In this document: in pieces, positions 1 to 30,095 of the stretch
Layout: every line of letters starts with the position of its first letter
Numbering within the stretch: position 1 is the stretch's first letter
NCBI GenBank assembly: GCA_037893245.1
Contig: JBAIAA010000535.1
Coordinates: 39,890 to 103,889 of the forward strand
Direction: 5' to 3'
From: Crossaster papposus
Lineage: Eukaryota; Echinodermata; Asteroidea; Velatida; Solasteridae
DNA length: 64,000 bases
The notes under the pieces: generated by a model
Databases searched by the model: none
What the model saw: the letters and a program-made list of their open reading frames with translations, nothing else
What the model was told of the DNA's origin: nothing
Program-made: the position numbers and the translations under genes

Positions 1-1293
1 CGTATTCCAGGAATTCTAAGACACGTATCTTTAGGTCCCCCGTATGTGATTCTATATTCCCAAGACAGTGTAAAAATATATCATAATATTTCGTCAAGGG
101 ACATCATTTATTTAGATGCAACTGGGTCAATCATACGCAATAATTCAACTTTTTCTGGATCAAAAAAGTACCAATTATATGATCTTGTAATCAGGCATCC
201 ACTAATAGGTTCTCCCCCCTTTGTGCTTGCCTCCCTGCTGACAACTGAACACAATTCAGTTCTAATCGGATTCTTTATCCAATGTTTCCTGCACTCCGAG
301 CAGATGATTTATGGGCATAACGGGGTTAAACCACCTTTAATGTTGATGATAGATGGCAGCCCGGCGCTGTTGCTTGCCTCTCTAAAGGCTTTTACAAACG
401 AGTCAGTGTCCGATTATTTCCATAGATGCTATAGGATCGTAACCGGGGAAGCTAAAGAGAGTGATTTCCAAAAAACTATAGTTCACTGTTGTGCCAGCCA
501 CTTCATGAAAAATGCAGCCAAAATGTGCAGAAAATACTACCGATCAAACTTTCGTGATTCCATGTACTGGTTAGGGTTACTCCTAAAGTCTAGTAATCTA
601 AAAGAAATTGACGACATTGTGGAATCGATTACAGTTGTAACTAACTCTGAATTGTCCACAGATTATGTAAAAAAACACTACCACAAACTGAAAGGTAAAG
701 TTGAAATGATCGAAGATGATGAAATCGAACTGAATTTGTTTGAAGACGATGATGAAGATGAAACCGAAGTTGATTGTAAGCAAAGCACGCCACACAATGA
801 CATTAAAGATAATGATTTGAATATGTCCCAGGACGAATACGTAAGAAGAGCACCCAAGTCGCCATTTAAGCAGCATTTTCAACGGGTGGTCGATGATACA
901 ATATTAAAAATAAAACAAATAGAAATGAAAATAAAAGATCCGTCCAAAATAAACAAAAATGCATATTTTGGTAAACAATTTATGTCACATTTACTTGAGT
1001 ATTCCCTTCCCAGTATCGCAAATTGGTCGGCGTTACTACTACATGACACTGGCAGACATGGCATTTCAATATCTTATCAGAAACAATCCCACCTATACAA
1101 CAAGCTAAAGACGTCCAAATTACAAAATATAACTACAAATAATAGAACTCAAGGTATCATCGAAAAATCAATGCAAGAGGTAAAAAGATCAAAACTAATT
1201 TATAACAGATGTAGGAAGCTAGTTGATTTTGTTGAAATGTATGAAAGGGACATGCTCCCACTGCAACGAGAATTTTGTGAGGCTTTCTGCTAA
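1..1293 (+). CDS. DDE transposase, MULE/NOF-like, 3' part (truncated by window edge)
   Basis: The frame is open from base 1 to the TAA at 1291, so the N-terminus lies outside the window. Motifs seen: DATGS with its Asp at 115-117; IDGSPALL with its Asp at 352-354; a C-x-x-H motif (CCASH) near 486-500; and NNRTQGIIE with its Glu at 1162-1164. The order Asp, Asp, C/H pair, Glu is what Mutator-like (MULE) and NOF-type transposases show around their DDE site. It would cut and join transposon ends in the nucleus. An acidic low-complexity stretch (EDDEIELNLFEDDDEDE) lies near 708-765. The USP-ULP1 protein starts 14 bp downstream on the same strand, so the two belong to one element. The exact superfamily is an inference from motif spacing; a KDZ-type (Zisupton/Dileera/Kyakuja) relative is the alternative. 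Confidence 0.72.
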   Translation, partial: RIPGILRHVSLGPPYVILYSQDSVKIYHNISSRDIIYLDATGSIIRNNSTFSGSKKYQLYDLVIRHPLIGSPPFVLASLLTTEHNSVLIGFFIQCFLHSEQMIYGHNGVKPPLMLMIDGSPALLLASLKAFTNESVSDYFHRCYRIVTGEAKESDFQKTIVHCCASHFMKNAAKMCRKYYRSNFRDSMYWLGLLLKSSNLKEIDDIVESITVVTNSELSTDYVKKHYHKLKGKVEMIEDDEIELNLFEDDDEDETEVDCKQSTPHNDIKDNDLNMSQDEYVRRAPKSPFKQHFQRVVDDTILKIKQIEMKIKDPSKINKNAYFGKQFMSHLLEYSLPSIANWSALLLHDTGRHGISISYQKQSHLYNKLKTSKLQNITTNNRTQGIIEKSMQEVKRSKLIYNRCRKLVDFVEMYERDMLPLQREFCEAFC

Positions 1294-1306
1294 AAAAAAA
1301 ATATAA

Positions 1307-2962
1307 AAAAAACTTCCTAAAACTGTAAAGTTGTCTTCAGAAAAATGGAAAAAAAGGTTAAGAACCAGCACCCCCACCAAAAAAGGTGTTTACCTAACAC
1401 CGCCAGCAATCAAGTTAACATTTAAGGACAAACCGAAACGAAATCGATCTAGAAATACACAAGACATCAAACACACTGACAAAGACTCCTGTGCTTCACC
1501 TTCCCCTAAAAAGAGGTGTGAAAACCCAAAAGTAGATCGAAAAACAAAAACACCCATTCCCAAAAATCCCAAAGCAACAAAACACCTCCCACGAGGCATT
1601 CAAAACAACGCGGTATCTTGCTGGTGGATTTCAACTATACAAGCAATGAAGCCTTTCATTACATCTTCCAAATTAACCGAAACCAAATTCCAAGGAAGTG
1701 GCGTTTCTCTTTGGCGACAACTTCTACAAATTTTCCAAAGTTTAACATCAAATCAACAAAATGCAGTCTCCTTCGCTGCCGTTAAGAAAATAATAGAACA
1801 GTGTGCACTTGAAATGGGCATTAACTGCAAACAACAACAAGATGCAGCAGAATTTTATTCACAGATTATGGTGCCGTTTTTAGAAAGTTCGTGTTTGACA
1901 AATGAAATAGAAATTGCTAAAAGCGTTATGTGCCTTGATTGTGACGAAAGTGTGGTTGTTGAAAGTTCAACAATGGGTACCTTGTCTATTGCCGTTCAGG
2001 GAAGCAGTATAGAACAGTGCTTGCAGGTTTACTTTGAGGATGAAATGGTAAACGGGGGTGCGGAATGTCTTTATTGTAAGAAAAGTCGGCCAAAGAAACT
2101 GATCACTTCTCGTATTCTCAACTCCCCGTCATTATTAGTATTGCAATTATTACGATTTAGAGCTAACGAAGGACAAGGAGAAAAACTAACAACAGAGGTC
2201 ACTCCCAACATCATGATAAACTTGACAAGGTATTGCACCAACAACACTCCCTCACTATACCAACTACGGTCTGTAATTTCACACGAGGGTGGCTCGGTAA
2301 ACAGTGGGCATTACATAACTTTTGTGTACAACACAGACGACAAAACATTTACAATATTCAACGACCAAAACGTGCAAAAATCCAATATACACAATTTTGT
2401 TCAACAAACATCACAATCTGGCTACTTATTTTTCTACGATAAAATTGAGAATACAGAAAGCATGTGTCATTCAGAACCGTTTGTTAAGCAGGCAGTCCTT
2501 AATGTAACTGCGGAAGATGAAGAATTTGTGCGTCTTCTTTGGGCATCTTTCAATGAGAAGAATTTAGACTATGTTGCTGTGCGAGATGACCCAAGTCAAA
2601 ATTTTCTTTCATTTCACCATTTGGCAACAATCTGCAACAACCCAAAATCTGCACTTTTAAAGCGACTGAAAAATATATATTCAATGTATCAGCCTGGGTG
2701 GCTAAGTGAAGTTACAGTTAATTTTTACATCGGTCAATTATGTGAAATTGCGAATCGAAAATGTCCGAGTAAATTTGCAGTAGCTCATTGCAGCGACACA
2801 TTAAAAATTGTAAACAATCAGCAAACACCAGAAACATTCAAGATAATTTCCAAGAAATGTTTTGTCAACAAAAAAATATGTGGTTGCATATTTTTCCCCT
2901 TAATAGAAAACATGCACTCTGTACGTGATGGACAATGTCAGCAACCATATAACATGCTATGA
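1307..2962 (+). CDS. Transposon-encoded USP (peptidase C19) domain fused to the start of a ULP1 domain
   Basis: The open frame runs from 1307 and has no in-frame ATG until about 1646, so the true start probably comes from splicing or was lost by an indel. A basic, Ser/Thr-Pro-rich N-terminal tail (about 90 residues, several Lys/Arg clusters) precedes a full USP fold: Cys box QNNAVSCWW with catalytic Cys at 1619-1621; QQDAAEF box near 1835-1855; two zinc-binding CxxC pairs (CLDC near 1933, CLYC near 2068); and His box NSGHYITF with His at 2309-2311 followed by IFNDQNV. This is ubiquitin-hydrolase architecture with all key residues present. After about 2700 the protein enters a ULP1-like fold and reaches the putative catalytic His at 2915-2917. 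It then goes out of frame and stops at 2962, while the matching ULP1 C-terminal half continues in frame 3. It follows the transposase closely, so it is most likely an accessory protein of the element. Confidence 0.75.
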   Translation, partial: KKLPKTVKLSSEKWKKRLRTSTPTKKGVYLTPPAIKLTFKDKPKRNRSRNTQDIKHTDKDSCASPSPKKRCENPKVDRKTKTPIPKNPKATKHLPRGIQNNAVSCWWISTIQAMKPFITSSKLTETKFQGSGVSLWRQLLQIFQSLTSNQQNAVSFAAVKKIIEQCALEMGINCKQQQDAAEFYSQIMVPFLESSCLTNEIEIAKSVMCLDCDESVVVESSTMGTLSIAVQGSSIEQCLQVYFEDEMVNGGAECLYCKKSRPKKLITSRILNSPSLLVLQLLRFRANEGQGEKLTTEVTPNIMINLTRYCTNNTPSLYQLRSVISHEGGSVNSGHYITFVYNTDDKTFTIFNDQNVQKSNIHNFVQQTSQSGYLFFYDKIENTESMCHSEPFVKQAVLNVTAEDEEFVRLLWASFNEKNLDYVAVRDDPSQNFLSFHHLATICNNPKSALLKRLKNIYSMYQPGWLSEVTVNFYIGQLCEIANRKCPSKFAVAHCSDTLKIVNNQQTPETFKIISKKCFVNKKICGCIFFPLIENMHSVRDGQCQQPYNML

Positions 2963-3311
2963 CTCATTAAGTTGCAGCAGGGACAATCGACAAAAACTGA
3001 TCATACATGGGAATGCCTTTTTCCGGTTTTTTCGCAATGGTAAAATGAATAGATACTGGAGTGAAATGCCTGGAGTCTTCCGTGACAACCAATCAGTTCC
3101 AATTAAACAAGCAAAGTGCCCTCAGCAGAAAGACGCATCCAGCTGTGGAGTATTCGCATGTCTCTATGCAGAAATGATATGCCTCAACGATCATACAATT
3201 AAAGACAATTCGGAGGCTTATAGAATATACCTCACGCTTCAAATACTAAAAAGATCTCGTATAATAGATCCTAATTTGCGAAATCTGTTTGAAGCTTACA
3301 ATACTGAATAA
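2925..3311 (+). CDS. C-terminal half of ULP1/SENP-type cysteine protease (frameshifted continuation)
   Basis: This frame continues the preceding protein after a frameshift at about 2917-2921. It carries CYDSL (catalytic Asp at 2961-2963) and CPQQKDASSCGVFAC, with the oxyanion Gln near 3123-3128 and catalytic Cys at 3144-3146. With the His at 2915 in the other frame, this completes the His-Asp-Gln-Cys order of ULP1 (peptidase C48). The family removes SUMO or similar modifiers. The frame opens with GTG at 2925 and has no promoter or ATG context of its own, so it is the broken second half of one gene. The coding sequence ends at TGAATAA, with AATAAA at 3307. A tiny unannotated intron cannot be excluded, but no GT/AG pair restores the frame neatly. 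Confidence 0.7.
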   Translation: MMDNVSNHITCYDSLSCSRDNRQKLIIHGNAFFRFFRNGKMNRYWSEMPGVFRDNQSVPIKQAKCPQQKDASSCGVFACLYAEMICLNDHTIKDNSEAYRIYLTLQILKRSRIIDPNLRNLFEAYNTE

Positions 3312-3457: not shown

Positions 3458-4249
3458 AACAGGTCAAAAGAAATAAGTCCCCCCCTGGGAAATGTGCATT
3501 TTTCTGGAAAACAGTTAGGCTCCTTTCCCTGTTACAAAAATTTAAAATGTAGTCTGAAATGTTACACATTATTGTGCAATAAAGTTTCACCCAACAGTTA
3601 ACCTTCGCCTTGAAATGCTGCCATTTATTAAATGTGATGACCAATAAAAAAATGACACTTTCTTGCATAGGGATTGGACAAATGGAGAAAATCATGTTTT
3701 ACAAAACAAAATTATCTTCTTTCCTCACTTCAATTAATTTTCCTAAAGTGTACAAATGTACACATGCATTTAATGTTTTTGTTTTTGTTTTAAATTTTCT
3801 AAATTTACGAAGTACAGTAAATTAGAGTCACCCAAGCAAAACAATTTGTTTAAAGCATAAAGGTTTGTAGAAATGGAAAGTTTTTTTTGTTGGTCCTTTC
3901 GTTTCAGTAATGAAATTAAAAACAAAAACAAAAACATTAAATGCATGTTTACATTTGTACACTTGAAAATTAATTGAAGTGAGTAAAGAATATTAAAACA
4001 TTCTGTAAAAACATGATTTTCTCGATTTGTCCAATCCCTATGCAAGAAAGTGTCATTTCTTTATTGGTCATCACATTCAATAAATGGCAGCATTTCAAGG
4101 CGAAGGTTAACTGTATGGTGAAACTTTATTGCACAATAAATGTGTAACATTTCAGACTACATTTTACATTTTTGTAACAGGTTAAGGAGCCTAACTGTCT
4201 TCCAGAAAATGCCCATTTCCCAGGGGGGACTTATTTCTTTTGACCTGTT
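3458..4249. repeat. Large foldback (inverted repeat), about 340-bp arms
   Basis: The left arm (3458 to about 3800) begins AACAGGTCAAAAGAAATAAG and returns as its reverse complement at about 3914 to 4249. Blocks such as GGCAAATAT-free AT-rich sequence, the AGTTAGGCTCC block (3513 / 4192) and CATGCATTTAATGTTTTTG (3763 / 3930) match with few differences. The spacer is about 115 bp. It starts about 150 bp after the transposon gene, so it may be a long terminal inverted repeat plus an inverted second copy, or a separate foldback element. It contains no coding sequence. Confidence 0.85.
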
Positions 4250-6407: not shown

Positions 6408-9400
6408 AGCGTTTTCACGAAGAGACGAATTTGGCCATGGGGAGTTGCACATTGGTTTTGAGAAAATCAGGTTTTAAGTTGGTCACTTTTTGAAAAAGAG
6501 ATTTCGCCTATTTGCAAAGCACATATTAACTTATATTTGGTACGTACAGAGAGCTAAGATCTAACACTATAACAATATACCTATTACATAACACTAACAA
6601 ACTTAATTGACGAGCAATTAATGTAGATATGAATTTGTCTGTTCGTGAAAATTCCAAATCTACGGTGGTGGCTTGTTTGCCCATAGCGCACGAATTCGTC
6701 TCTTCGTGAAAACTTAAAAACTGGTTTTGCCCAAATTTGTCTCTTCGTGGATGTATATACAATGTATATACATTGTACGCGCGTTGTTTTTGCACTCGGA
6801 GCAACGTTATTTCTATCTACACAGGGACAAAATACAATTTGGCTGTTCGTGAAAATTCACAAATTATATTTCGTCTGTTCGTGAAAATTCCAAATCTACG
6901 GTGGTCGCTTTTTTGCCCATAGCGCACGAATTTGTCTCTTCGTGAAAACTTAAAAACTTGTTTTGACGATATCTGTCTCTTCGTGAAGCTTCTGCCGATG
7001 GCACAGCTTCAGAAGCCGCATTTTTGTGTGTAAAGAAGTAACTTAGTACCTGGAGAGTTATGAAAAAAGACTGACACGTGTAAATAACATGAAATTGGTG
7101 TATGAAAATCAATGCCACGACGCGACCAGCGCGGCGAAGGCGAATACAACCGATTTTGTACTACATGTATTACTAATGCCTGGTCGGAGTTGTGTCGTCG
7201 TGTGTCGCATTATTTTTTCCACACGGGAGTTGCCACGGTCTGCAGCGAAAAGGAATTATTTGGAAAGTAAGAAAAAACAAGGAATGTAGCTATACATGTA
7301 GTATTATATTAACAAATATATTTGTCGTATTTTAGGCAAGGCTTTTTTTTATTTTAATTATTTTGAAATCGGTTCCCGATTTTGCAAGGTGCCAAAGAAC
7401 ACACGGCATCATCAACAACACCAATGCATCAGCACAGTGGTTCGCAATACTTACCATAACCACAGAAGAATCCACCCAAAACTGTTAACCACCAAAGATG
7501 GAAATGCCATTTTATTGCAAAGTATGGGGGAAGGGTCAGGCAGGGGATGTTTATACTCCTACTATGGTGCCTTATGTTATATAGTTCTAGCACTATCGTG
7601 ATATTTATTTGCCATTGGTGATTTGTATTGATATTTTTAGGCAACAACGTAGTAGCTATCTGATTCCCTGAAAATGACAATACTCTGGACCTTAAGTTAC
7701 TCTTGGAACCTGGCTAATATCAACCAGTGCGGTTCCAAGATCGATATCAAAATATTATTGTCAATGTGTCGGCCTGGGTATGTCTGGGAATCAGCTCGTC
7801 AACTGCCGTAGGCACTAACGATAGCCACTGCGTTTTACAGGCAAGTTAAATGGCAATCAGAAATTCTCTTCTGATTAGAATATCTTTCTTGATGTACAAA
7901 TTACAGTTTTTGTTTTTATTTATTTTTTACAGCATATCTTCTGGATCAATGGATGAAAATTTCAATCTGGAATTGGAGCAGCTCTTCAGTGCAGTACTTG
8001 ACTGTACCGACAGCACCAATTTTATTTACCGGATGATGACACAGGAATAGACCCCATCTGAACAATTATATGTAGCTGTAAATAAACTGAATGTTCATTA
8101 TTTTGTGCGAGTCACACAATGGTGTTTTGTATAAGCTGTGGTATTGGTCAGTTTACTCCAACTGCAACATTATGATAGAATTGTTTACTTGAGAATAAAA
8201 GCATGTATTTTGGCACAAATTCAGAGTGTGTTATAAGAAAAATATTTGGCTCTCCGCTCTCGGGCCATCGTAGTTTTGACTTTAGGAAAAATATCTAAGT
8301 AGAATAACATGCAATGGTAGCCATTTATAATTTGTTTTAAATGCCTGTTATATTTTTTTCAAGGGGCAAATGTAGGATGGCCCTATACATTTATATTCTA
8401 AAGACATACTATTTTGATTGTGTGACAAATTCCATGCTTTTATCATTTTTACCATGTTTGTTTCAACAATCTGCCTGACTTAACAGCAAGACTCCAATTT
8501 ATGTATGCCAGTAGGCAGTATAGTATAGTCCTGAATTGGCATGATGTATATTATTGCTACTGCCGACCACCTGTAGGGAGTACAATTGCCAATAAAGTAT
8601 CCCATATATAGCATAATATCAACCGAAAATAGTTTTTTGGAAAATTGTTGGTAAACTGAAATATTAATCTACCCTCTTTTACAGGCTTCATATGAAAATC
8701 ATGACTAACTATAGGTTCAAAGAAGTGCCAATTAGACCAGACTATATTGAATGCAAAAATAAGTTACATGAAATTTTTTGGAAAAGCCAACTGTCATTTT
8801 TACATTTAGGACAGATACTTCCATTTAGAACTCGTGTTGGGCGCAATTCAGTCTTTCTGCGCGGCGCGAACTGCTGATCTGCACGAACTGCTAATCTGCG
8901 CGAACCGTCCATTGCGTGCGCTGCTGTGATCATGGGGAGGTACAGGTAGGCCCGAATCGGATCGCGCTGCATTCGTTGTCGGTTGATCGTGCCTCAATTG
9001 GCCGATCGTGCCACCACCAGTCGATTGCCTTCTATTTAGCACTTCCATTTAGTTCCAATGCATGAGTACTTTGGGGGTTGTTCTGCAAAAGAGAATTAAA
9101 AACTGAGAAATAGGCTGACGGTACTTGTGCAAATGCATTTTTGATAGCGCAGATTTAGAGACTGCGCCCAAAATTCTGATTTTGGACCCCCAAAAGTAGG
9201 TTATGTTCCATTCCCTGCAACCGACAACATTGATTTTCGGATTCAGGACATCAAACTGAGTAGAATCACACAATTTGTTTTTTGTTCCCAAACTGGTACC
9301 ACTGATTTTTTTTCGGAGCATATTTTTGGGTCACGTAACACGGCCTAAATGTATATACAATCATTGTACGCGCGTTGTTTTTGCACTCAGAGCAACGTTA

Positions 9401-12924: not shown

Positions 12925-13480
12925 TACCGTAATTTCCTACGGTAAAGCCGCACGGCGGATAAGGCGCAGGTCCCTAAAATCACCCAAAAAAAATTCAAAC
13001 GTCAACAGATAAAGCGCACTGCCGAATAAGGCGCATGCTTGAACGCACCCAAAAGAACACCAGGCGCCACCCGGTGTAGGTACATCGCCACAAAGGGGTC
13101 ATTTTGTTGCCTTAGAAGGATCCCACTATTCCAAGCAAGAATTTGCTGAGTACTTGAGTTTATCTGGCACGCAAACAATGTATGAAAACTTCAAACCAGT
13201 AGTCACAATATCGCACGAGGTTTGCCGATACATATCATGTATCACTGCAGTATAAACTGCATGCACATGTACATATCACATGCATGTGATCGCGTGCATG
13301 GTATCCCTAATTGTGACACCCCCTAGTCTTTTTTCCAGTCGTTGTGAATGCTCCGCGCTGTGTAGTTCGGATGGTGAATTGCATGAAGCCGGAACGTAGA
13401 CGAAAAAAACGTTTAGAAAAAGGCCACATAGTACGGGCCAGCTTTTTATCGCTGTTGTACGCGTCATGCAGCGCACGCTG

Positions 13481-13616
13481 TAGTCTTGTTTGCAAGACGA
13501 TCTTAATCGCGGTATATGCAGCGCGTGTAGGCCGCCGATGCGGTAATTCGCGCGTGGTCTACGGCGTACGTTAGAGGGCGCCCCGCATCGCGAAAAACGT
13601 CTTGCAAACAAGACTA
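13481..13616. mobile_element. Short MITE with TAGTCTTGTTTGCAAGACG inverted ends
   Basis: TAGTCTTGTTTGCAAGACG at 13481 returns exactly inverted, ending at 13616. A partial relative (CGTCTTGCAAACAAGACTA with CGTACGTTAGAGGG) lies at about 42360-42450 in MAO intron 3. Non-coding. Confidence 0.75.
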
Positions 13617-13935
13617 CGCACGCTGCCGAGTGCTAAATCACATACATTAGCCTCTGTCATGACCTTTCTAAAAGGTCAACGCGAGGAAAATTGTCAAAAT
13701 GGCGGCGCTTACCAACAGCAACACGTGTGTCGTCGATGTCAGAACTTTATGGCTTACGACGGAGCTCTAAAGGCTGTGGTTATTTCGAAAGGATAAATCG
13801 TAGGCATAAGGCTAAATGTCATCCAAAACCGTAAAATTACGAAAGAGAAAGAAACAGCGACTGAAAAAATGGTCAGTTTGTGAAAGCGTGCTGCGCTATA
13901 TACGTACGTGCGTAGCTAGCAGATGTCAGACAAGT

Positions 13936-13993
13936 CGACCGTTGAGACAACTCGCCCGTTGAGACAACTCGCCCGTTGAGACAACTCGACCTT
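13936..13993. repeat. Short tandem repeat, 18-bp unit
   Basis: About three copies of CGTTGAGACAACTCGCCC. Confidence 0.85.
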
Positions 13994-14541
13994 TGGGAGA
14001 GCTATAGCTGTACTTCGACGTTTACATTGTTTATAAACAGTTAATGTTGGGCCGACTTTCCTCATGCAATGTTGCCATACTTCTTTGTTGACAAACTGCA
14101 AATTCATTGTACCTTTACCATGTTAATGTTATTAATGCTTGCTATTTATCCTCTGTTAACAATTTAGGTGTAAGCTTAGTCCGAAAAAAACACCAAAACG
14201 GTGGCGTCCAGAAATTGTGCACACAATCGACCGAGTGCTCCCTAATTGGTCGTGGCGCAATTGAATAATTCTTGAAAAATTCAAGTTTAATATTTACGAA
14301 GTTCTTTTAATGTCAGGCTTCAGTCAATAAAAGGGTAAAATATTACTAGATTTCACAGGCGTCTGTACATTTAATGTGACAGTATTTAAAACTGGTTTTT
14401 AAATTAACATTGCAGGATTAGGAATGTTGAGGTTTAACGTCCAGTAATTATGTGAACCAAGTGCTTGTGTGTAAAGCCCCAAATTTATATTTGATGTCAA
14501 AAAATAATTAAAAATACAAAAATAATATTGCTTGTACATGT

Positions 14542-15342
14542 CGTCACCGTTTTCACGAAGAGGCGAATTTCATGAAAAATCGTCTATTTATCGAAATTAT
14601 TTTTTTTGATGAAAACGATTAAATATTGCAATTTCTACAACCTGGTGAAGTTATACATCCACAAAATCATTAAAATCACAATTAACCTAATTAACTAATG
14701 GGCGAATTGGTCCTCAAGTGCCCTTTTGCGTTTTCACGAAGAGGCAAATTCGAAATAGCGTTGACTTCAACGTGTTTATGAAGGGCACTTTGGTGCGCGT
14801 AGTCACTTTAGCGTTTTCACGAAGAGGCGAATTGGGCGAATTGGTCGCGAAGTGGCTTTTAGCGTTTTCACGAAGAGGCAAATTCGAAATAGCGTTGACT
14901 TCAACGTGTTTATGAAGGGCACTTTGGTGCGCTTAGTCACTTTAGCGTTTTCACGAAGAGGCGAATTGGGCGAATTGGTCGCGAAGTGGCTTTTAGCGTT
15001 TTCACGAAGAGACAAATTGGGGGCGCAATGGGGAAATGTATACATTCTGACTCTCACAGCCACGGGCGAATTTGCTAATGTATCTTTTTTTTCGTTTTCA
15101 CGAAGAGGCAATTCTATTAATTGATTAATTCTGCAAAACTAATCACCTATTTTTCTTAACGTTTGCTATATTTAAGAAGATTGAAATCTCTTCTTTCCCA
15201 TGATACCTTAATCTTGTATATTCTATGGATATTTATGTTTCAAACTGCCAAACGAAAAAAGGACAAACTTTACAAGCGATTATCTCGAAAGTTTGTTCAG
15301 ACCGTGAAAGGCTCAATTTGCCTCTTCGTGAAAACGGTGACG
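14542..15342. mobile_element. 800-bp MITE with internal 134-bp tandem duplication
   Basis: CGTCACCGTTTTCACGAAG at 14542 returns inverted at 15315-15342 (about 28-bp ends). Flanks ATGT|CGTCAC and GTGACG|ATGT suggest a 4-bp target duplication. The interior carries the end module at 14728, 14862 and 14996, exactly 134 bp apart, defining a 134-bp tandem repeat that contains the module in forward orientation. No coding capacity. Confidence 0.8.
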
Positions 15343-16061
15343 ATGTATCAAGTTGTATGAATTGGCCCCAGAATTTGTTTACTGTTTGGCATTCAAATAT
15401 GGCTTCAGTTCAGTGCCACTGAATTTTTTGTTTTGTTTAAATGTTAATTGGGCCTAACCGGTTTTCTAAGGAGCATAAATACACGGCGGGTCTTTTCAAG
15501 TGCAGGAAAGAAAATCTAGTTTTATGATTGGCCATTTTTTATTAAGTATTTCCCCGCAATTCACTAACTATCTGTTGTCTTTCCTCCATGGTATAGCTAC
15601 TTACGTTAGTTTTACGCGCGAGCTCGGAAGCCATATTGACAAATTTCCTCAAAACGCCCTCTTCGGTTGATTTTCGTCATTTCATGACAGAGGCTAATGT
15701 ACGGTCGTAGGGGGATCAACACATCGCGGCATTGTTAATGGAAACACGGTCACAATGTCCGGAGAGTTGGGCTAATTGGTTGACCGCATTATTGAGTAAG
15801 ATTGCGGCGTTCAAAGAATTCTTCACACAAAGACCGTCACTTTGAAATCAAGCGACATCATATAAGGCGCACCGAAAGATAAGGCGCGGCGATGTTTTTG
15901 TGGTCTAGAAAGTCAGATAAGCCGCGGCTTTACCGCAGGAAATTACGGTAGGCCTATGCGCACCAAAGCGCCAACTTCGACTCTTTGTGAAAACGCTAAC
16001 GTCAGTACACGCACCAAAGCGCCCCCCCCCCCCCCAACCCTTGTTTTTGTTTTACGTGAGG

Positions 16062-19000
16062 GGGATTTGGTTTAAAGACGTCTTTACACTCCGTGCACAA
16101 TATTAAAGCATAAATGGGGAAATTATGTCATTTTGGTGAGGCTGAAAATAATTATTATAGTTGACTGATTTAGGCTTTAATATCCAAAATTAAGTGTGCC
16201 CTGTAGCATGATCTTTCAGGATCTGCAATAAAAAATATTACTTTTACAATTTTGGGAGGGATAATTTTTTTAAAGACGTCTTCAAACTTTGTGCACAAAG
16301 TCTATGGAGAAAAGTGTAATTTTGAGTTGTCGAGGATGGACATTATTATTGGACCGATTCACCCTTATCCAAAATTAAGTGTGCCCTGTAGCATGATCTT
16401 TCAGATTCTGCAATAAAAAAATCTACTTTGAAGATTTTGGGAGGGATACTTTTTTTTAAAGACGTCTTTAAACTCTGTGCACAATGTCTATGGAGAAAAG
16501 TGTAATTTTGAGTTGTCGAGGATGGACATTATTAGTTGCCCGATTCAGCCTTATCCAAAATTAAGTGTGCCCTGTAGCATGATCTTTCAGATTCTGCAAT
16601 AAAAAAATCTACTTTGAAGATTTTGGGAGGGATACTTTTTTTTAAAGACGTCTTTAAACTCTGTGCACAATGTCTATGGAGAAAAGTGTAATTTTGAGTT
16701 GTCGAGGATGGACATTATTAGTTGCCCGATTCAGCCTTATCCAAAATTAAGTGTGCCCTGTAGCATGATCTTTCAGATTCTGCAATAAAAAAATCTACTT
16801 TGAAGATTTTGGGAGGGATACTTTTTTTTAAAGACGTCTTTAAACTCTGTGCACAAAGTCTATGGAGAAAAGTGTAATTTTGAGTTGTCGAGGATGGACA
16901 TTATTAGTTGCCATGCCCGATTCAGCCTTATCCAAAATTAAGTGTGCCCTGTAGCATGATCTTTCAGATTCTGCAATAAAAAAATCTACTTTGAAGATTT
17001 TGGGAGGGATACTTTTTTTTAAAGACGTCTCTGTGCACAAAGTCTATGGAGAAAAGTGTAATTTTGAGTTGTCGAGGATGGACATTATTAGTTGATGCCC
17101 GATTCAGCCTTATCCAAAATTAAGTGTGCCCTGTAGCATGATCTTTCAGATTCTGCAATAAAAAAATCTACTTTGAAGATTTTGGGAGGGATACTTTTTT
17201 TTAAAGACGTCTTTAAACTCTGTGCACAAAGTCTATGGAGAAAAGTGTAATTTGGAGTTGTCGAGGATGGACATTATTAGTTGCCCGATTCAGCCTTATC
17301 CAAAATTAAGTGTGCCCTGTAGCATGATCTTTCAGATTCTGCAATAAAAAAATCTACTTTGAAGATTTTGGGAGGGATACTTTTTTTTTAAAGACGTCTT
17401 TAAACTCTGTGCACAAAGTCTATGGAGAAAAGTGTAATTTTGAGTTGTCGAGGATGGACATTATTAGTTGCCCGATTCAGCCTTATCCAAAATTAAGTGT
17501 GCCCTGTAGCATGATCTTTCAGATTCTGCAATAAAAAAATCTACTTTGAAGATTTTGGGAGGGATACTTTTTTTAAAGACGTCTTTAAACTCTGTGCACA
17601 AAGTCTATGGAGAAAAGTGTAATTTTGAGTTGTCGAGGATGGACATTATTAGTTGCCCGATTCAGCCTTATCCAAAATTAAGTGTGCCCTGTAGCATGAT
17701 CTTTCAGATTCTGCAATAAAAAAATCTACTTTGAAGATTTTGGGAGGGATACTTTTTTTTAAAGACGTCTTTAAACTCTGTGCACAATGTCTATGGAGAA
17801 AAGTGTAATTTTGAGTTGTCGAGGATGGACATTATTAGTTGCCCGATTCAGCCTTATCCAAAATTAAGTGTGCCCTGTAGCATGATCTTTCAGATTCTGC
17901 AATAAAAAAATCTACTTTGAAGATTTTGGGAGGGATACTTTTTTTTAAAGACGTCTGTGCACAATGTCTATGGAGAAAAGTGTAATTTTGAGTTGTCGAG
18001 GATGGACATTATTAGTTGCCCGATTCAGCCTTATCCAAAATTAAGTGTGCCCTGTAGCATGATCTTTCAGATTCTGCAATAAAAAAATCTACTTTGAAAA
18101 TTTTGGGAGGGATACTTTTTTTTAAAGACGTCTTTAAACTCTGTGCACAAAGTCTATGGAGAAAAGTGTAATTTTGAGTTGTCGAGGATGGACATTATTA
18201 GTTGCCATGCCCGATTCAGCCTTATCCAAAATTAAGTGTGCCCTGTAGCATGATCTTTCAGATTCTGCAATAAAAAAATCTACTTTGAAGATTTTGGGAG
18301 GGATACTTTTTTTTAAAGACGTCTCTGTGCACAAAGTCTATGGAGAAAAGTGTAATTTTGAGTTGTCGAGGATGGACATTATTAGTTGATGCCCGATTCA
18401 GCCTTATCCAAAATTAAGTGTGCCCTGTAGCATGATCTTTCAGATTCTGCAATAAAAAAATCTACTTTGAAGATTTTGGGAGGGATACTTTTTTTTAAAG
18501 ACGTCTTTAAACTCTGTGCACAAAGTCTATGGAGAAAAGTGTAATTTTGAGTTGTCGAGGATGGACATTATTAGTTGCCCGATTCAGCCTTATCCAAAAT
18601 TAAGTGTGCCCTGTAGCATGATCTTTCAGATTCTGCAATAAAAAAATCTACTTTGAAGATTTTGGGAGGGATACTTTTTTTTAAAGACGTCTTTAAACTC
18701 TGTGCACAAAGGCTATGGAGAAAAGTGTAATTTTGAGTTGTCGAGGATGGACATTATTAGTTGCCCGATTCAGCCTTATCCAAAATTAAGTGTGCCCTGT
18801 AGCATGATCTTTCAGATTCTGCAATAAAAAAATCTACTTTGAAGATTTTGGGAGGGATACTTTTTTTTAAAGACGTCTTTAAACTCTGTGCACAATGTCT
18901 ATGGAGAAAAGTGTAATTTTGAGTTGTCGAGGATGGACATTATTAGTTGCCCGATTCAGCCTTATCCAAAATTAAGTGTGCCCTGTAGCATGATCTTTCA

Positions 19001-22000
19001 GATTCTGCAATAAAAAAATCTACTTTGAAGATTTTGGGAGGGATACTTTTTTTTAAAGACGTCTGTGCACAATGTCTATGGAGAAAAGTGTAATTTTGAG
19101 TTGTCGAGGATGGACATTATTAGTTGCCCGATTCAGCCTTATCCAAAATTAAGTGTGCCCTGTAGCATGATCTTTCAGATTCTGCAATAAAAAAATCTAC
19201 TTTGAAGATTTTGGGAGGGATACTTTTTTTTAAAGACGTCTCTGTGCACAAAGTCTATGGAGAAAAGTGTAATTTTGAGTTGTCGAGGATGGACATTATT
19301 AGTTGATGCCCGATTCAGCCTTATCCAAAATTAAGTGTGCCCTGTAGCATGATCTTTCAGATTCTGCAATAAAAAAATCTACTTTGAAGATTTTGGGAGG
19401 GATACTTTTTTTTAAAGACGTCTTTAAACTTTGTGCACAAAGTCTATGGAGAAAAGTGTAATTTTGAGTTGTCGAGGATGGACATTATTAGTGGCCCGAT
19501 TCAGCCTTATCCAAAATTAGGTGTGCCCTGTAGCATGATCTTTCAGATTCTGCAATAAAAAAATCTACTTTGAAGATTTTGGGAGGGATACTTTTTTTTA
19601 AAGACGTCTTTAAACTCTGTGCACAATGTCTATGGAGAAAAGTGTAATTTTGAGTTGTCGAGGATGGACATTATTAGTTGCCCGATTCAGCCTTATCCAA
19701 AATTAAGTGTGCCCTGTAGCATGATCTTTCAGATTCTGCAATAAAAAAATCTACTTTGAAGATTTTGGGAGGGATACTTTTTTTTAAAGACGTCTTTAAA
19801 CTCTGTGCACAAAGTCTATGGAGAAAAGTGTAATTTTGAGTTGTCGAGGATGGACATTATTAGTTGCCCGATTCAGCCTTATCCAAAATTAAGTGTGCCC
19901 TGTAGCATGATCTTTCAGATTCTGCAATAAAAAAATCTACTTTGAAGATTTTGGGAGGGATACTTTTTTTTAAAGACGTCTCTGTGCACAAAGTCTATGG
20001 AGAAAAGTGTAATTTTGAGTTGTCGAGGATGGACATTATTAGTTGATGCCCGATTCAGCCTTATCCAAAATTAAGTGTGCCCTGTAGCATGATCTTTCAG
20101 ATTCTGCAATAAAAAAATCTACTTTGAAGATTTTGGGAGGGATACTTTTTTTTAAAGACGTCTTTAAACTCTGTGCACAAAGTCTATGGAGAAAAGTGTA
20201 ATTTTGAGTTGTCGAGGATGGACATTATTAGTTGCCCGATTCAGCCTTATCCAAAATTAAGTGTGCCCTGTAGCATGATCTTTCAGATTCTGCAATAAAA
20301 AAATCTACTTTGAAGATTTTGGGAGAGATACTTTTTTTTAAAGACGTCTTTAAACTCTGTGCACAAAGTCTATGGAGAAAAGTGTAATTTTGAGTTGTCG
20401 AGGATGGACATTATTAGTTGCCCGATTCAGCCTTATCCAAAATTAAGTGTGCCCTGTAGCATGATCTTTCAGATTCTGCAATAAAAAAATCTACTTTGAA
20501 GATTTTGGGAGGGATACTTTTTTTTAAAGACGTCTTTAAACTCTGTGCACAAAGTCTATGGAGAAAAGTGTAATTTTGAGTTGTCGAGGATGGACATTAT
20601 TAGTTGCCCGATTCAGCCTTATCCAAAATTAAGTGTGCCCTGTAGCATGATCTTTCAGATTCTGCAATAAAAAAATCTACTTTGAAGATTTTGGGAGGGA
20701 TACTTTTTTTTAAAGACGTCTTTAAACTCTGTGCACAAAGTCTATGGAGAAAAGTGTAATTTTGAGTTGTCGAGGATGGACATTATTAGTTGCCCGATTC
20801 AGCCTTATCCAAAATTAAGTGTGCCCTGTAGCATGATCTTTCAGATTCTGCAATAAAAAAATCTACTTTGAAGATTTTGGGAGGGATACTTTTTTTTAAA
20901 GACGTCTCTGTGCACAAAGTCTATGGAGAAAAGTGTAATTTTGAGTTGTCGAGGATGGACATTATTAGTTGATGCCCGATTCAGCCTTATCCAAAATTAA
21001 GTGTGCCCTGTAGCATGATCTTTCAGATTCTGCAATAAAAAAATCTACTTTGAAGATTTTGGGAGGGATACTTTTTTTTAAAGACGTCTTTAAACTCTGT
21101 GCACAAAGTCTATGGAGAAAAGTGTAATTTTGAGTTGTCGAGGATGGACATTATTAGTTGCCCGATTCAGCCTTATCCAAAATTAAGTGTGCCCTGTAGC
21201 ATGATCTTTCAGATTCTGCAATAAAAAAATCTACTTTGAAGATTTTGGGAGGGATACTTTTTTTTAAAGACGTCTTTAAACTCTGTGCACAAAGTCTATG
21301 GAGAAAAGTGTAATTTTGAGTTGTCGAGGATGGACATTATTAGTTGCCCGATTCAGCCTTATCCAAAATTAAGTGTGCCCTGTAGCATGATCTTTCAGAT
21401 TCTGCAATAAAAAAATCTACTTTGAAGATTTTGGGAGGGATACTTTTTTTTAAAGACGTCTTTAAACTCTGTGCACAAAGTCTATGGAGAAAAGTGTAAT
21501 TTTGAGTTGTCGAGGATGGACATTATTAGTTGCCCGATTCAGCCTTATCCAAAATTAAGTGTGCCCTGTAGCATGATCTTTCAGATTCTGCAATAAAAAA
21601 ATCTACTTTGAAGATTTTGGGAGGGATACTTTTTTTTAAAGACGTCTCTGTGCACAAAGTCTATGGAGAAAAGTGTAATTTTGAGTTGTCGAGGATGGAC
21701 ATTATTAGTTGATGCCCGATTCAGCCTTATCCAAAATTAAGTGTGCCCTGTAGCATGATCTTTCAGATTCTGCAATAAAAAAATCTACTTTGAAGATTTT
21801 GGGAGGGATACTTTTTTTTAAAGACGGCTTTAAACTCTGTGCACAAAGTCTATGGAGAAAGGTGTAATTTTGAGTTGTCGAGGATGGACATTATTAGTTG
21901 CCCGATTCAGCCTTATCCAAAATTAAGTGTGCCCTGTAGCATGATCTTTCAGATTCTGCAATAAAAAAATCTACTTTGAAGATTTTGGGAGGGATACTAA

Positions 22001-25000
22001 TTTTTAAAGACGTCTTTAAACTCTGTGCACAAAGTCTATGGAGAAAAGTGTAATTTTGAGTTGTCGAGGATGGACATTATTAGTTGCCCGATTCAGCCTT
22101 ATCCAAAATTAAGTGTGCCCTGTAGCATGATCTTTCAGATTCTGCAATAAAAAAATCTACTTTGAAGATTTTGGGAGGGATACTTTTTTTTAAAGACGTC
22201 TTTAAACTCTGTGCACAAAGTCTATGGAGAAAAGTGTAATTTTGAGTTGTCGAGGATGGACATTATTAGTTGCCCGATTCAGCCTTATCCAAAATTAAGT
22301 GTGCCCTGTAGCATGATCTTTCAGATTCTGCAATAAAAAAATCTACTTTGAAGATTTTGGGAGGGGTACTTTTTTTTAAAGACGTCTTTAAACTCTGTGC
22401 ACAATGTCTATGGAGAAAAGTGTAATTTTGAGTTGTCGAGGATGGACATTATTAGTTGCCCGATTCAGCCTTATCCAAAATTAAGTGTGCCCTGTAGCAT
22501 GATCTTTCAGATTCTGCAATAAAAAAATCTACTTTGAAGATTTTGGGAGGGATACTTTTTTTTAAAGACGTCTGTGCACAATGTCTATGGAGAAAAGTGT
22601 AATTTTGAGTTGTCGAGGATGGACATTATTAGTTGCCCGATTCAGCCTTATTTAAAGACGTCTTTAAACTCTGTGCACAAAGTCTATGGAGAAAAGTGTA
22701 ATTTTGAGTTGTCGAGGATGGACATTATTAGTGGCCCGATTCAGCCTTATCCAAAATTAAGTGTGCCCTGTAGCATGATCTTTCAGATTCTGCAATAAAA
22801 AAATCTACTTTGAAGATTTTGGGAGGGATCTTTCAGATTCTGATCTTTCAGATTCTGCAATAAAAAAATCTACTTTGAAGATTTTGGGAGGGATACTTTT
22901 TTTTAAAGACGTCTGTGCACAATGTCTATGGAGAAAAGTGTAATTTTGAGTTGTCGAGGATGGACATTATTAGTTGCCCGATTCAGCCTTATTTAAAGAC
23001 GTCTTTAAACTCTGTGCACAAAGTCTATGGAGAAAAGTGTAATTTTGAGTTGTCGAGGATGGACATTATTAGTGGCCCGATTCAGCCTTATCCAAAATTA
23101 AGTGTGCCCTGTAGCATGATCTTTCAGATTCTGCAATAAAAAAATCTACTTTGAAGATTTTGGGAGGGGTACTTTTTTTTAAAGACGTCTTTAAACTCTG
23201 TGCACAATGTCTATGGAGAAAAGTGTAATTTTGAGTTGTCGAGGATGGACATTATTAGTTGCCCGATTCAGCCTTATCCAAAATTAAGTGTGCCCTGTAG
23301 CATGATCTTTCAGATTCTGCAATAAAAAAATCTACTTTGAAGATTTTGGGAGGGATACTTTTTTTTAAAGACGTCTGTGCACAATGTCTATGGAGAAAAG
23401 TGTAATTTTGAGTTGTCGAGGATGGACATTATTAGTTGCCCGATTCAGCCTTATCCAAAATTAAGTGTGCCCTGTAGCATGATCTTTCAGATTCTGCAAT
23501 AAAAAAAATCTACTTTGAAGATTTTGGGAGGGATACCTTTTTTTAAAGACGTCTTTAAACTCTGTGCACAAAGTCTATGGAGAAAAGTGTAATTTTGAGT
23601 TGTCGAGGATGGACATTATTAGTTGCCATGCCCGATTCAGCCTTATCCAAAATTAAGTGTGCCCTGTAGCATGATCTTTCAGATTCTGCAATAAAAAAAT
23701 CTACTTTGAAGATTTTGGGAGGGATACTTTTTTTTAAAGACGTCTCTGTGCACAAAGTCTATGGAGAAAAGTGTAATTTTGAGTTGTCGAGGTTGGACAT
23801 TATTAGTTGATGCCCGATTCAGCCTTATCCAAAATTAAGTGTGCCCTGTAGCATGATCTTTCAGATTCTGCAATAAAAAAATCTACTTTGAAGATTTTGG
23901 GAGGGATACTTTTTTTTAAAGACGTCTTTAAACTCTGTGCACAAAGTCTATGGAGAAAAGTGTAATTTTGAGTTGTCGAGGATGGACATTATTAGTTGCC
24001 CGATTCAGCCTTATCCAAAATTAAGTGTGCCCTGTAGCATGATCTTTCAGATTCTGCAATAAAAAAATCTACTTTGAAGATTTTGGGAGGGATACTTTTT
24101 TTTAAAGACGTCTTTAAACTCTGTGCACAAAGTCTATGGAGAAAAGTGTAATTTTGAGTTGTCGAGGATGGACATTATTAGTTGCCCGATTCAGCCTTAT
24201 CCAAAATTAAGTGTGCCCTGTAGCATGATCTTTCAGATTCTGCAATAAAAAAATCTACTTTGAAGATTTTGGGAGGGATACTTTTTTTTAAAGACGTCTT
24301 TAAACTCTGTGCACAAAGTCTATGGAGAAAAGTGTAATTTTGAGTTGTCGAGGATGGACATTATTAGTTGCCCGATTCAGCCTTATCCAAAATTAAGTGT
24401 GCCCTGTAGCATGATCTTTCAGATTCTGCAATAAAAAAATCTACTTTGAAGATTTTGGGAGGGATACTTTTTTTTAAAGACGTCTTTAAACTCTGTGCAC
24501 AATGTCTATGGAGAAAAGTGTAATTTTGAGTTGTCGAGGATGGACATTATTAGTTGCCCGATTCAGCCTTATCCAAAATTAAGTGTGCCCTGTAGCATGA
24601 TCTTTCAGATTCTGCAATAAAAAAATCTACTTTGAAGATTTTGGGAGGGATACTTTTTTTTAAAGACGTCTCTGTGCACAAAGTCTATGGAGAAAAGTGT
24701 AATTTTGAGTTGTCGAGGATGGACATTATTAGTTGATGCCCGATTCAGCCTTATCCAAAATTAAGTGTGCCCTGTAGCATGATCTTTCAGATTCTGCAAT
24801 AAAAAAATCTACTTTGAAGATTTTGGGAGGGATACTTTTTTTTAAAGACGTCTTTAAACTCTGTGCACAAAGTCTATGGAGAAAAGTGTAATTTTGAGTT
24901 GTCGAGGATGGACATTATTAGTTGCCCGATTCAGCCTTATCCAAAATTAAGTGTGCCCTGTAGCATGATCTTTCAGATTCTGCATGCAATAAAAAAATCT

Positions 25001-26355
25001 ACTTTGAAGATTTTGGGAGGGATACTTTTTTTTAAAGACGTCTTTAAACTCTGTGCACAAAGTCTATGGAGAAAAGTGTAATTTTGAGTTGTCGAGGATG
25101 GACATTATTAGTTGTCCGATTCAGCCTTATCCAAAATTAAGTGTGCCCTGTAGCATGATCTTTCAGATTCTGCAATAAAAAAATCTACTTTGAAGATTTT
25201 GGGAGGGATACTTTTTTTTAAAGACGTCTTTAAACTCTGTGCACAAAGTCTATGGAGAAAAGTGTAATTTTGAGTTGTCGAGGATGGACATTATTAGTTG
25301 CCCGATTCAGCCTTATCCAAAATTAAGTGTGCCCTGTAGCATGATCTTTCAGATTCTGCAATAAAAAAATCTACTTTGAAGATTTTGGGAGGGATACTTT
25401 TTTTTAAAGACGTCTTTAAACTCTGTGCACAATGTCTATGGAGAAAAGTGTAATTTTGAGTTGTCGAGGATGGACATTATTAGTTGCCCGATTCAGCCTT
25501 ATCCAAAATTAAGTGTGCCCTGTAGCATGATCTTTCAGATTCTGCAATAAAAAAATCTACTTTGAAGATTTTGGGAGGGATACTTTTTTTTAAAGACGTC
25601 TTTAAACTTTGTGCACAAAGTCTATGGAGAAAAGTGTAATTTTGAGTTGTCGAGGATGGACATTATTAGTTGCCCGATTCAGCCTTATCCAAAATTAAGT
25701 GTGCCCTGTAGCATGATCTTTCAGATTCTGCAATAAAAAAATCTACTTTGAAGATTTTGGGAGGGATACTTTTTTTTAAAGACGTCTTTAAACTCTGTGC
25801 ACAATGTCTATGGAGAAAAGTGTAATTTTGAGTTGTCGAGGATGGACATTATTAGTTGCCCGATTCAGCCTTATCCAAAATTAAGTGTGCCCTGTAGCAT
25901 GATCTTTCAGATTCTGCAATAAAAAAATCTACTTTGAAGATTTTGGGAGGGATACTTTTTTTTAAAGACGTCTTTAAACTTTGTGCACAAAGTCTATGGA
26001 GAAAAGTGTAATTTTGAGTTGTCGAGGATGGACATTATTAGTGGCCCGATTCAGCCTTATCCAAAATTAAGTGTGCCCTGTAGCATGATCTTTCAGATTC
26101 TGCAATAAAAAAATATACTTTGAAGATTTTGGGAGGGATACTTTTTTTTAAAGACGTCTTTAAACTCTGTGCACAATGTCTATGGAGAAAAGTGTGATTT
26201 TGAGTTGTCGAGGATGGACATTATTAGTTGCCCGATTCAGCCTTATCCAAAATTAAGTGTGCCCTGTAGCATGATCTTTCAGATTCTGCAATAAAAAAAT
26301 CTACTTTGAAGATTTTGGGAGTAGAGGGAGAATCTTGTTTAAAGACGTCTTAAAA
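16062..26355 (+). repeat. Satellite array, about 55 units of roughly 186 bp
   Basis: Each full unit runs from TTTAAAGACGTCTTTAAACT through GTGCAC, GGAGAAAAGTGTAATTTTGA, GTTGTCGAGGATGGACATTA, ATTCAGCCTTATCC, AATTAAGTGTGCCCTGTAGC and TCTGCAATAAAAAAATC to TTTTGGGAGGGATAC. Spacing in clean stretches is 186 bp. The first two units (16062-16440) and the last (26300-26355) are the most diverged, as expected at array edges. Variants lose TTAAACT beside GACGTC or insert GATG/CCATG before CCCGATT, and these variants recur in fixed order. No plausible coding sequence: the short frames inside change with every indel. Confidence 0.97.
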
Positions 26356-27824: not shown

Positions 27825-28122
27825 AGACGACGTATTTTTGGACCTCCTTTTGATGCATGTGTTTTATATTTCAGGAGTTCGAGGATGAGTTCGCGGATGA
27901 GTTCGAGGATGGAAATCGCGGATAGCTTTGGTCAGGTCTGTTTTCGGGAGCAGTTTGGGTGCTACTGCATTTTGTGTACAGACGCCGCGCTAGTGATTCC
28001 CCGAGACCGTATCCACAACCTCTATATTTATTTGACCACGTTTTAGAGAACGACCAGGTCGAAGATTAGGTGAGTGCTAGTGACCTCGGTCTCGGAGATT
28101 GGGAGCTGAGTAGTTTAGCCCA

Positions 28123-29820: not shown

Positions 29821-30095
29821 GGACTTTTCCGAGGTTCCGTCTGATGTAATTTGTCTCTAAATCTGCGCTATAAAGTTTCCAAAAAATTTGCGATAAACGC
29901 AAAACATAATGGCGGATCAAGTCTGCACAAGCGTGCACAGCTCGCCGCTGTTGTTCAGTGCGACGAGCTTTGCACGCCGCGCCTGCGCCTGCGCAGACTT
30001 GTTCCGCCATATTGTTTTGCGTTTATCACAAATTTTTGGGAAACTTTATAACGCAGATTTAGAAATTACACCAGATGGAACCGCGGAAAAGTCCT
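29821..30095. repeat. 275-bp palindromic element bordering the minisatellite
   Basis: GGACTTTTCCGAGGTTCC at 29821 returns as GGAACCGCGGAAAAGTCC ending 30094. The inner blocks CTATAAAGTTTCC, CGCAAAACATAATGGCGGA and CAAGTCTGC are also mirrored (29870-29927 against 29994-30056). It ends directly where the 11-bp minisatellite starts. Confidence 0.85.

Follow-up and report, generated by a model that had tools for sequence, protein, structure and literature searches.

Can a single transposon carry, on the very protein that moves it, enzymes for removing both ubiquitin and SUMO? The question is raised by a stretch of 64,000 nt from the echinoderm Crossaster papposus (the window; C535:39890-103889, contig JBAIAA010000535.1), at the start of which a first-pass annotation described a MULE/NOF-like DDE transposase followed by a separate protein joining a ubiquitin-specific protease (USP) site to a ULP1 site. 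The window very probably holds the 3' portion of a DNA transposon of foldback type, 51.9 kb long and similar to Mutator-like elements (MULEs) and IS256, with a PHD-DDE-USP-ULP1 frame; the element is real, conserved and mobile. Genome searches were made in the species' own 1.02-Gb assembly.

In uninterrupted copies one frame of about 1470-2090 codons encodes a PHD finger (in the three copies read fully), a Cys/His-rich region that is the probable DNA-binding region, the DDE transposase, the USP and the ULP1. The first-pass annotation had proposed a search for intact copies with a continuous USP-ULP1 frame beside the transposase; such copies occur at six loci of the same genome, where a single open frame spans DDE, USP and ULP1 (C360, 2088 aa; C7, 2024 aa; C96 and C364, 1807 aa each; C643, 1482 aa; C245, 1468 aa), and the C48 model is listed within that frame at C7, C360, C643 and C245. 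The PHD finger is N-terminal in all three uninterrupted copies read fully (C7, C96 and C360); the C489 copy, also read, is broken in the USP. Pfam matches in the three uninterrupted proteins have E-values of 5e-25 to 1.8e-28 for UCH, 8.4e-10 to 4.9e-5 for C48 and 5.4e-6 to 1.4e-13 for PHD, and the C7 copy holds UCH (1.8e-28) and C48 (8.4e-10) in one frame together with a PHD finger (2.2e-7). PF00443 is matched in four proteins at 5e-25 to 6.7e-29, and PF02902 in three subfamilies at 8.4e-10, 4.9e-5 and 5.3e-6. Two short motifs are also kept in C7, C360 and C96, namely GGGRK/GGGKS early in the big exon and TSTPxxKGxY in the linker ahead of the USP.

The window copy displays these parts with the frame broken twice, at the DDE/USP boundary and within the ULP1 directly after the catalytic His (2915). 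Its transposase frame (C535:36626-41179, 1518 codons) begins upstream of the window, where it encodes tandem repeats of DPDITDA type as well as a PHD-like stretch; the description of the transposase as a separate gene does not hold, given this upstream start and the uninterrupted copies that join DDE to USP-ULP1. The catalytic residues named for the two proteases are present at the window positions assigned to them (Cys 1619 and His 2309 for the USP; His 2915, Asp 2961 and Cys 3144 for the ULP1), and the two protease models proposed for checking, UCH PF00443 and Peptidase_C48 PF02902, both match (Table 1). The palindrome that follows the stop codon is also found in the C7, C838, C617, C146 and C594 copies, which are near-identical.

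Of 86 candidates for a USP-ULP1 query of 543 residues, 80 were scored, giving at least 72 matches across the genome; a transposase query of 430 residues gave at least 66. All 72 USP-ULP1 matches and the best 42 of the 66 transposase matches were grouped into 50 clusters with thresholds of 60, 90 and 60 residues, for which C146 and C594 qualify with only 69 residues of DDE. The pairing was to be abandoned if the USP-ULP1 order recurred in no further copy; DDE, USP and ULP1 occur together in 24 of the 50 clusters, in that order in every one (coordinates checked by eye), which goes beyond chance. The remainder consist of USP with ULP1 (8), DDE alone (8), USP alone (5), ULP1 alone (3), DDE with ULP1 (1) and one cluster below the thresholds. 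The possibility that USP and ULP1 are separate genes joined only at this locus is ruled out by the 24 ordered clusters. Loci with USP and ULP1 parts 6 kb apart were considered as domesticated genes and rejected: C592, read across 9.2 kb, proved to be a degraded copy interrupted by inserted sequence, and two places on C445 show the same 6-kb spacing.

Conservation was assessed in two alignments, A1 (17 of 43 transposase rows) and A2 (16 of 57 USP-ULP1 rows); most of the rows left out are fragments or repeat a place already represented, and the C360 row was extended to the full domain pair. Four subfamily representatives were compared, with identities to C7 of 50, 46 and 31% in USP-ULP1 and 64, 61 and 49% in DDE; the third is C489 for DDE and C64b for USP-ULP1, C489/C871 and C871/C64b being near-identical pairs. 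In first-sequence numbering, all four retain C83, Q155-Q156-D157, H313, D331, C187/C190 and C232/C235 in the USP, which agrees, together with the fold, with the Cys, His, Asp/Asn triad and zinc-ribbon CxxC pairs of that class. All four likewise retain H515, D532, Q586-Q587 and C593 in the C48 domain, the His-Asp-Gln-Cys set of ULP1/SENP proteases, and D235, D314, C360-H363 and E584 in the transposase. Between subfamilies the USP-ULP1 part has pN/pS (nonsynonymous over synonymous differences) of 0.31/0.78 for C7-C96, 0.35/0.81 for C7-C64b and 0.47/0.77 for C7-C360, with pS saturated and hence no ratio given; the DDE part has pN 0.23-0.33 and pS 0.81-0.85. That pN lies far below a saturated pS is what purifying selection on the proteases would predict. 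Closer pairs have dN/dS values of 0.35 (C7-C64a) and 0.34 (C96-C762).

The ends of the element were found by outward DNA searches. The first-pass annotation placed its end at 3311 and its 5' inverted repeat somewhere outside the window; the true right end is window 27937, and the left end was located at C535:15966, for a span of 51,861 bp that includes nested insertions at 6986-9347, 12925-15700 and 26405-27818. Sequence from C535:15966 onward also occurs, inverted, at the opposite end of the C7, C362 and C146 copies. Both ends contain arrays of a 186-bp unit, for which TRF counts 35.0 and 17.9 copies in the right array (16181-26321) and 20.6 copies in the scanned part of the left array (C535:16125-21683); the longest blastn alignments between the inverted arrays are 96-98% identical. 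At the insertion at 26405-27818, C535:16076-16084 is matched on both sides, which accounts for a 9-bp overlap. The termini of the C535 element are ACCTGTCC on the left and GGTCAGGT on the right, and the right end reads GGACAGGT in C7, C596, C164 and C904. Inverted termini are shared by all five elements cut out at both ends (C535, C7, C596, C164 and C904), and a search with the terminal 124 bp returns at least 40 matches (40 of 65 candidates scored). A search for inverted repeats near the open reading frame in three other subfamilies returned just short pairs, none of them flanking the frame.

The octamer CTGTTTTC is duplicated on both sides of the C535 element. Contig C603 is the empty site of this insertion: its identity to the left flank is 98.0% across 808 bp, rising to about 100% farther from the site, its identity to the right flank is 99.4% across 1003 bp, and CTGTTTTC occurs in it once. 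Perfect 8-bp duplications also border the 42,628-bp C7 element (TTTACGCT) and a 1,525-bp element on C596 (CAATGTGC; G000:C596:419324-420848), which has the same termini and is a probable non-autonomous passenger. The inverted termini, perfect 8-bp duplications and empty site show that the element is mobile.

MULE and IS256-like transposases have a DDE triad with C/D(x2)H between the second D and the E, and MULEs produce target duplications of 8-11 bp; the transposase has the triad and C(x2)H in four of four representatives, and the duplications in C535, C7 and C596 are perfect at 8 bp. Foldback elements are marked by long terminal inverted repeats with tandem repeats, seen here as the 186-bp arrays at both ends. 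The label MULE/NOF-like is supported only indirectly, through C(x2)H, the foldback ends, the 8-bp duplication and a fold match to the IS256 type that is weak; it finds no support in the MULE model PF10551, which has no match. Pfam holds models of KDZ (Kyakuja-Dileera-Zisupton) transposases, and no Pfam family, KDZ included, matched the transposase in the comparison, which covered Pfam models alone. For the proteases, profile searches of USP-ULP1 against solved chains return USP8/USP2 (4e-19) and SENP1 (1.1e-11), and the ULP1 part is closest to the SUMO proteases SENP1 and SENP2 among the best 60 of 105 rows. A structural model of USP-ULP1 (mean pLDDT 74) matches USP30, USP14 and USP2, with a best E of 3.9e-20; its best 50 rows are all USPs, with no ULP1 entry.

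Related arrangements are found in the same genome. Distant relatives at L004:1-1917 and L007:1480-3344 have transposases 25-30% identical, with an Asp aligned to the Cys of the C(x2)H motif, a ULP1 downstream and no USP match; they may preserve the stage that preceded the gain of the USP. The C463 and C772 loci combine a DDE part 25-30% identical with a ULP1 close downstream and no USP match, both copies being broken; they offer a lead that ULP1 may have come first, with the USP added in between later. A MULE-type transposase with ULP1 and a C-terminal PHD is seen at L002:1141-3519 and L008:1129-3405, where PF10551 scores 1.6e-4 and 0.008, below its cut-off. Searches for relatives with A3 and A4 in viral_contigs and A3 in genome_contigs gave pattern matches and no confirmed relative, these collections being viral or prokaryotic and saying little on eukaryotes; a fold search of the transposase in a viral library has one row below 1e-3, the bracovirus protein O92526 (E 2.3e-6).

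A further exon, perhaps encoding a C2H2-like zinc finger, is predicted to precede the big exon. A frame followed by a GT donor lies at about C535:36060-36230 and encodes a C2H2-like stretch, which has a 25-residue match (52%, E 0.004) upstream of the C360 big exon and no counterpart upstream of that of C96; the only Pfam model returned for it is zf-Di19 (0.023), below its cut-off. A THAP-domain-like frame, so named by eye, inside the left end (L046:2210-2548; C535:22209) was rejected as a transposase exon: it belongs to an unrelated high-copy repeat within the left part of the transposon, and its 150 listed matches, of 1444 candidates, reach down to about 83% identity with none in another element copy.

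Several observations weigh against the reading given here. No Pfam family matches the transposase, whether in the window copy at E<=5 or in the C7 copy at E<=1, its profile has no meaningful sequence match in the Protein Data Bank (PDB; best E 0.061), and NCBIfam returns for the 2024-aa frame just a Rad50 model (0.018) over the tandem-repeat part. The structural model of the transposase has a mean pLDDT of 57, most core blocks lying at 65-90 and some near 50. With this query of modest confidence the best five PDB fold rows are all ISCth4, at E 1.1e-3 to 8.9e-3, so that none reaches 1e-3, and have TM-scores of 0.14-0.20 by query length; Hermes comes next. ISCth4 is a member of the IS256 family, the bacterial kin of MULE. 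Perfect 8-bp duplications border three of the six elements checked; C164 and C904 have none, and the 34,015-bp C362 element is ambiguous, its flanks agreeing at 7 of the 8 bases provided that the last two bases are missing from the right end. The window copy is itself broken, and must have transposed before breakage or been transposed in trans, or else the breaks are assembly errors. Copy counts are lower bounds that include probable allelic contigs (C146/C594, C96/C364), so that 24 is no tally of independent insertions. Very recent pairs have high dN/dS (C96-C584, 0.67; C64b-C871, 0.95; the DDE part of C489-C871, 1.83 with few changes), as is expected of dead copies. The predicted zinc-finger exon rests on a splice-like junction and the 25-residue match in one subfamily.

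Table 1. Features of the transposon in the window, with coordinates in window numbering.
Feature	Position	Strand	Remarks
DDE transposase part, C-terminal 430 codons	1..1290	+	Start and PHD finger upstream of the window, C535:36626
USP domain and N-terminal half of ULP1	1331..2959	+	PF00443 at residues 89-369, E 6.7e-29; severed from the transposase by a frame break
ULP1 (Peptidase_C48), C-terminal half	2907..3308	+	PF02902, E 1.4e-7; different frame, break after His 2915
Long imperfect palindrome, ~790 bp	3458..4249		Just 3' of the stop codon
Nested insertion, 2.36-kb high-copy repeat foreign to the element	6986..9347		Many places match this stretch alone, mostly at 91-97%
Nested insertion, very high-copy repeat foreign to the element	12925..15700		Right edge approximate
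Right terminal inverted repeat, inner part	16181..26321		186-bp tandem units; inverted copy of C535:16125-21683
Nested insertion within the right terminal inverted repeat	26405..27818		Inverted repeat resumes with a 9-bp overlap
Right terminal inverted repeat, outer 119 bp	27819..27937		99.2% identical to C535:15966-16084; 27937 is the last base
8-bp target site duplication, right copy	27938..27945		Followed by host flank continuing the empty site on C603

The repeat inserted at 12925-15700 has dozens of scored copies at 97-100% identity and a few at 86-96%, and is a recently active element. Elsewhere in the window, a tandem repeat array at 46185-49872 has multiple reading frames that stay open for about 1200 codons, and a second array at 30052-31079 is open in several frames on both strands. 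The frame at 33044-33505 resembles, by eye, an IS1595/Merlin-type transposase. No Rfam match occurs within the window. In the assembly, an uninterrupted cox1 in the standard code (a 682-codon frame at G000:C8:5208663, L064) lies on a contig of more than 5 Mb, which is probably a bacterial chromosome. The mitochondrial cox1 on contig C1841 makes sense when AAA is translated as Asn, the echinoderm/flatworm code, for example in the conserved stretch GGFGNWL; the invertebrate code would place Lys at those sites, and the Asn reading points to an echinoderm host.

The joining of a transposase to two proteases of deconjugase type suggests that the element may itself edit ubiquitin and SUMO tags during its movement. 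The DNA-binding region would dock on the 186-bp arrays, after which the DDE part would cut at the ACCTGTCC/GGACAGGT termini; the PHD finger would tether the complex to histone H3 tails, and the USP and ULP1, acting in cis, would strip ubiquitin and SUMO, respectively, from the transposase as well as from chromatin close by. SUMO-targeted ubiquitin ligases of the host act on SUMO-tagged proteins and add ubiquitin, the two tags being used in order. A protein with both activities would escape this route of destruction and silencing, because the ligases target SUMO-tagged proteins and add ubiquitin to them. Self-protection is favored since the route uses both tags in order, and since enzymes fused to a transposase would act first on the nearest targets. 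As a whole, this predicted mechanism of DDE cutting, PHD tethering, deconjugation in cis and self-protection is considered possible, at somewhat less than even chances; anatomy and mechanism taken jointly are, as a blended estimate, moderately probable. More tentative, and on the unlikely side, is the fuller proposal of a self-protecting transposase which, with DDE, PHD and both deconjugases acting against mixed SUMO-ubiquitin chains, would evade SUMO-targeted ligases and SUMO-dependent silencing and would act as autonomous master to the short, non-coding members of a giant foldback lineage in echinoderms.

Other roles for the two proteases have to be weighed. ULP1-fold proteases process proteins in adenoviruses, and perhaps in Maverick/Polinton elements, and cut after Gly-Gly or similar sites. 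The ULP1 could likewise cut the long product into transposase and USP pieces, leaving the USP alone to act on host ubiquitin; this is quite unlikely. All domains do lie on one very long frame, and C7, C96 and C360 all keep the GGG motif early in the big exon; however, the ULP1 part most resembles SUMO proteases, as given above, and inspection of A2 by eye shows no conserved Gly-Gly either between DDE and USP or between USP and ULP1. It is also held unlikely, if less so, that the proteases alter ubiquitin and SUMO marks at excision double-strand breaks and so steer host repair rather than protect the transposase. A repair role has been proposed for the Ulp1 and OTU domains of Ginger (PMC2836005, in its available part) and the enzyme classes are the same here; no datum in this analysis separates repair from self-protection, the fusion in cis fits either, and the two may both be true.

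That the USP and ULP1 are captured passengers with no role in transposition is very improbable: Mutator-like transposons are prone to capturing gene fragments (Pack-MULEs, available part of PMC6431247) and many copies here are broken, however the order is constant in 24 of 50 clusters, one frame covers all three domains at six loci, the catalytic residues are invariant in four representatives, and pN lies far below pS between subfamilies. There is hardly any likelihood that the loci arose by segmental duplication of an ordinary host gene and are no transposon at all. Such a view could draw on the full copies being long (34-52 kb) and few, and on the duplication missing in two and ambiguous in one of six elements; against it stand the inverted termini shared by five elements, the perfect 8-bp duplications in C535, C7 and C596, the empty site, and the 1.5-kb C596 element, which ends in the same termini.

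FB/NOF and the sea urchin TU elements are foldback elements, and TU may be short relatives of the present element; MULEs share with it a C(x2)H transposase and target duplications of 8-11 bp, and the transposase_11 class is of IS4/IS5 type. The MULE-type family at L002 and L008 differs in its C-terminal PHD, whereas that of the present element is N-terminal. Transposases carrying one ubiquitin- or SUMO-type protease are already known. The available part of PMC2836005 describes Mutator-like elements of plants, hydra and lancelet with Ulp1, some with a PHD finger, which similarly place a SUMO-protease-type domain downstream of a DDE transposase; it notes no USP there, and the present element differs further in having foldback-type size and ends and no PF10551 match. 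In the same text, Ginger1 transposons have a C-terminal Ulp1 or OTU on one transposase protein, one listed family having a PHD; however, their transposase is Gypsy-integrase-like, the proteases occur singly and the tabulated elements are 2.6-7.1 kb. The present element combines USP with Ulp1, on a transposase of another kind. The Trichomonas protein listed there fuses a USP-class domain (Peptidase C19) to transposase_11, but comes from a protist, belongs to another transposase class and has no ULP1 mentioned in that part of the source.

Helitrons provide two deconjugase domains in one transposon protein: according to the available part of PMC9741609, some carry VTD and 121 also OTU. The assays reported there were confined to zebrafish VTDs; all those tested reacted with ubiquitin and two of the three with NEDD8 as well, but none with SUMO probes. 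These are rolling-circle elements with no DDE transposase, however, and both domains are deubiquitinase classes. The foldback elements Tetris and Tm1 (PMC4079207, PMC3169594, in their available parts) have similarly long inverted ends of tandem repeats, with target duplications of 8-10 bp and mostly 9 bp, respectively, versus 8 bp here; Tetris copies differ in having no conserved frames, and Tm1-A in encoding a 496-aa MULE transposase, and these parts of the foldback accounts mention no protease. No report of USP and ULP1 on one DDE transposase frame was found in the literature searched, subscription papers and Repbase lying outside it. As far as that literature extends, the pairing of USP with ULP1 on one DDE frame in a giant foldback body is new.

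The element is a protein-coding foldback transposon of 34-52 kb, eukaryotic transposons of more than 20 kb (with an internal coding region) being termed giant in the available part of PMC6431247. In several diverged subfamilies it unites two deconjugase classes with a DDE transposase; uninterrupted frames occur naturally, and one insertion is accompanied by its empty site. Ubiquitin- and SUMO-type proteases recur on several unrelated transposons (PMC2836005, PMC9741609, in their available parts), and the present element makes the question of why they do so testable, because each activity can be removed separately and any change in how stable the transposase is, or in how the element moves, can be measured.

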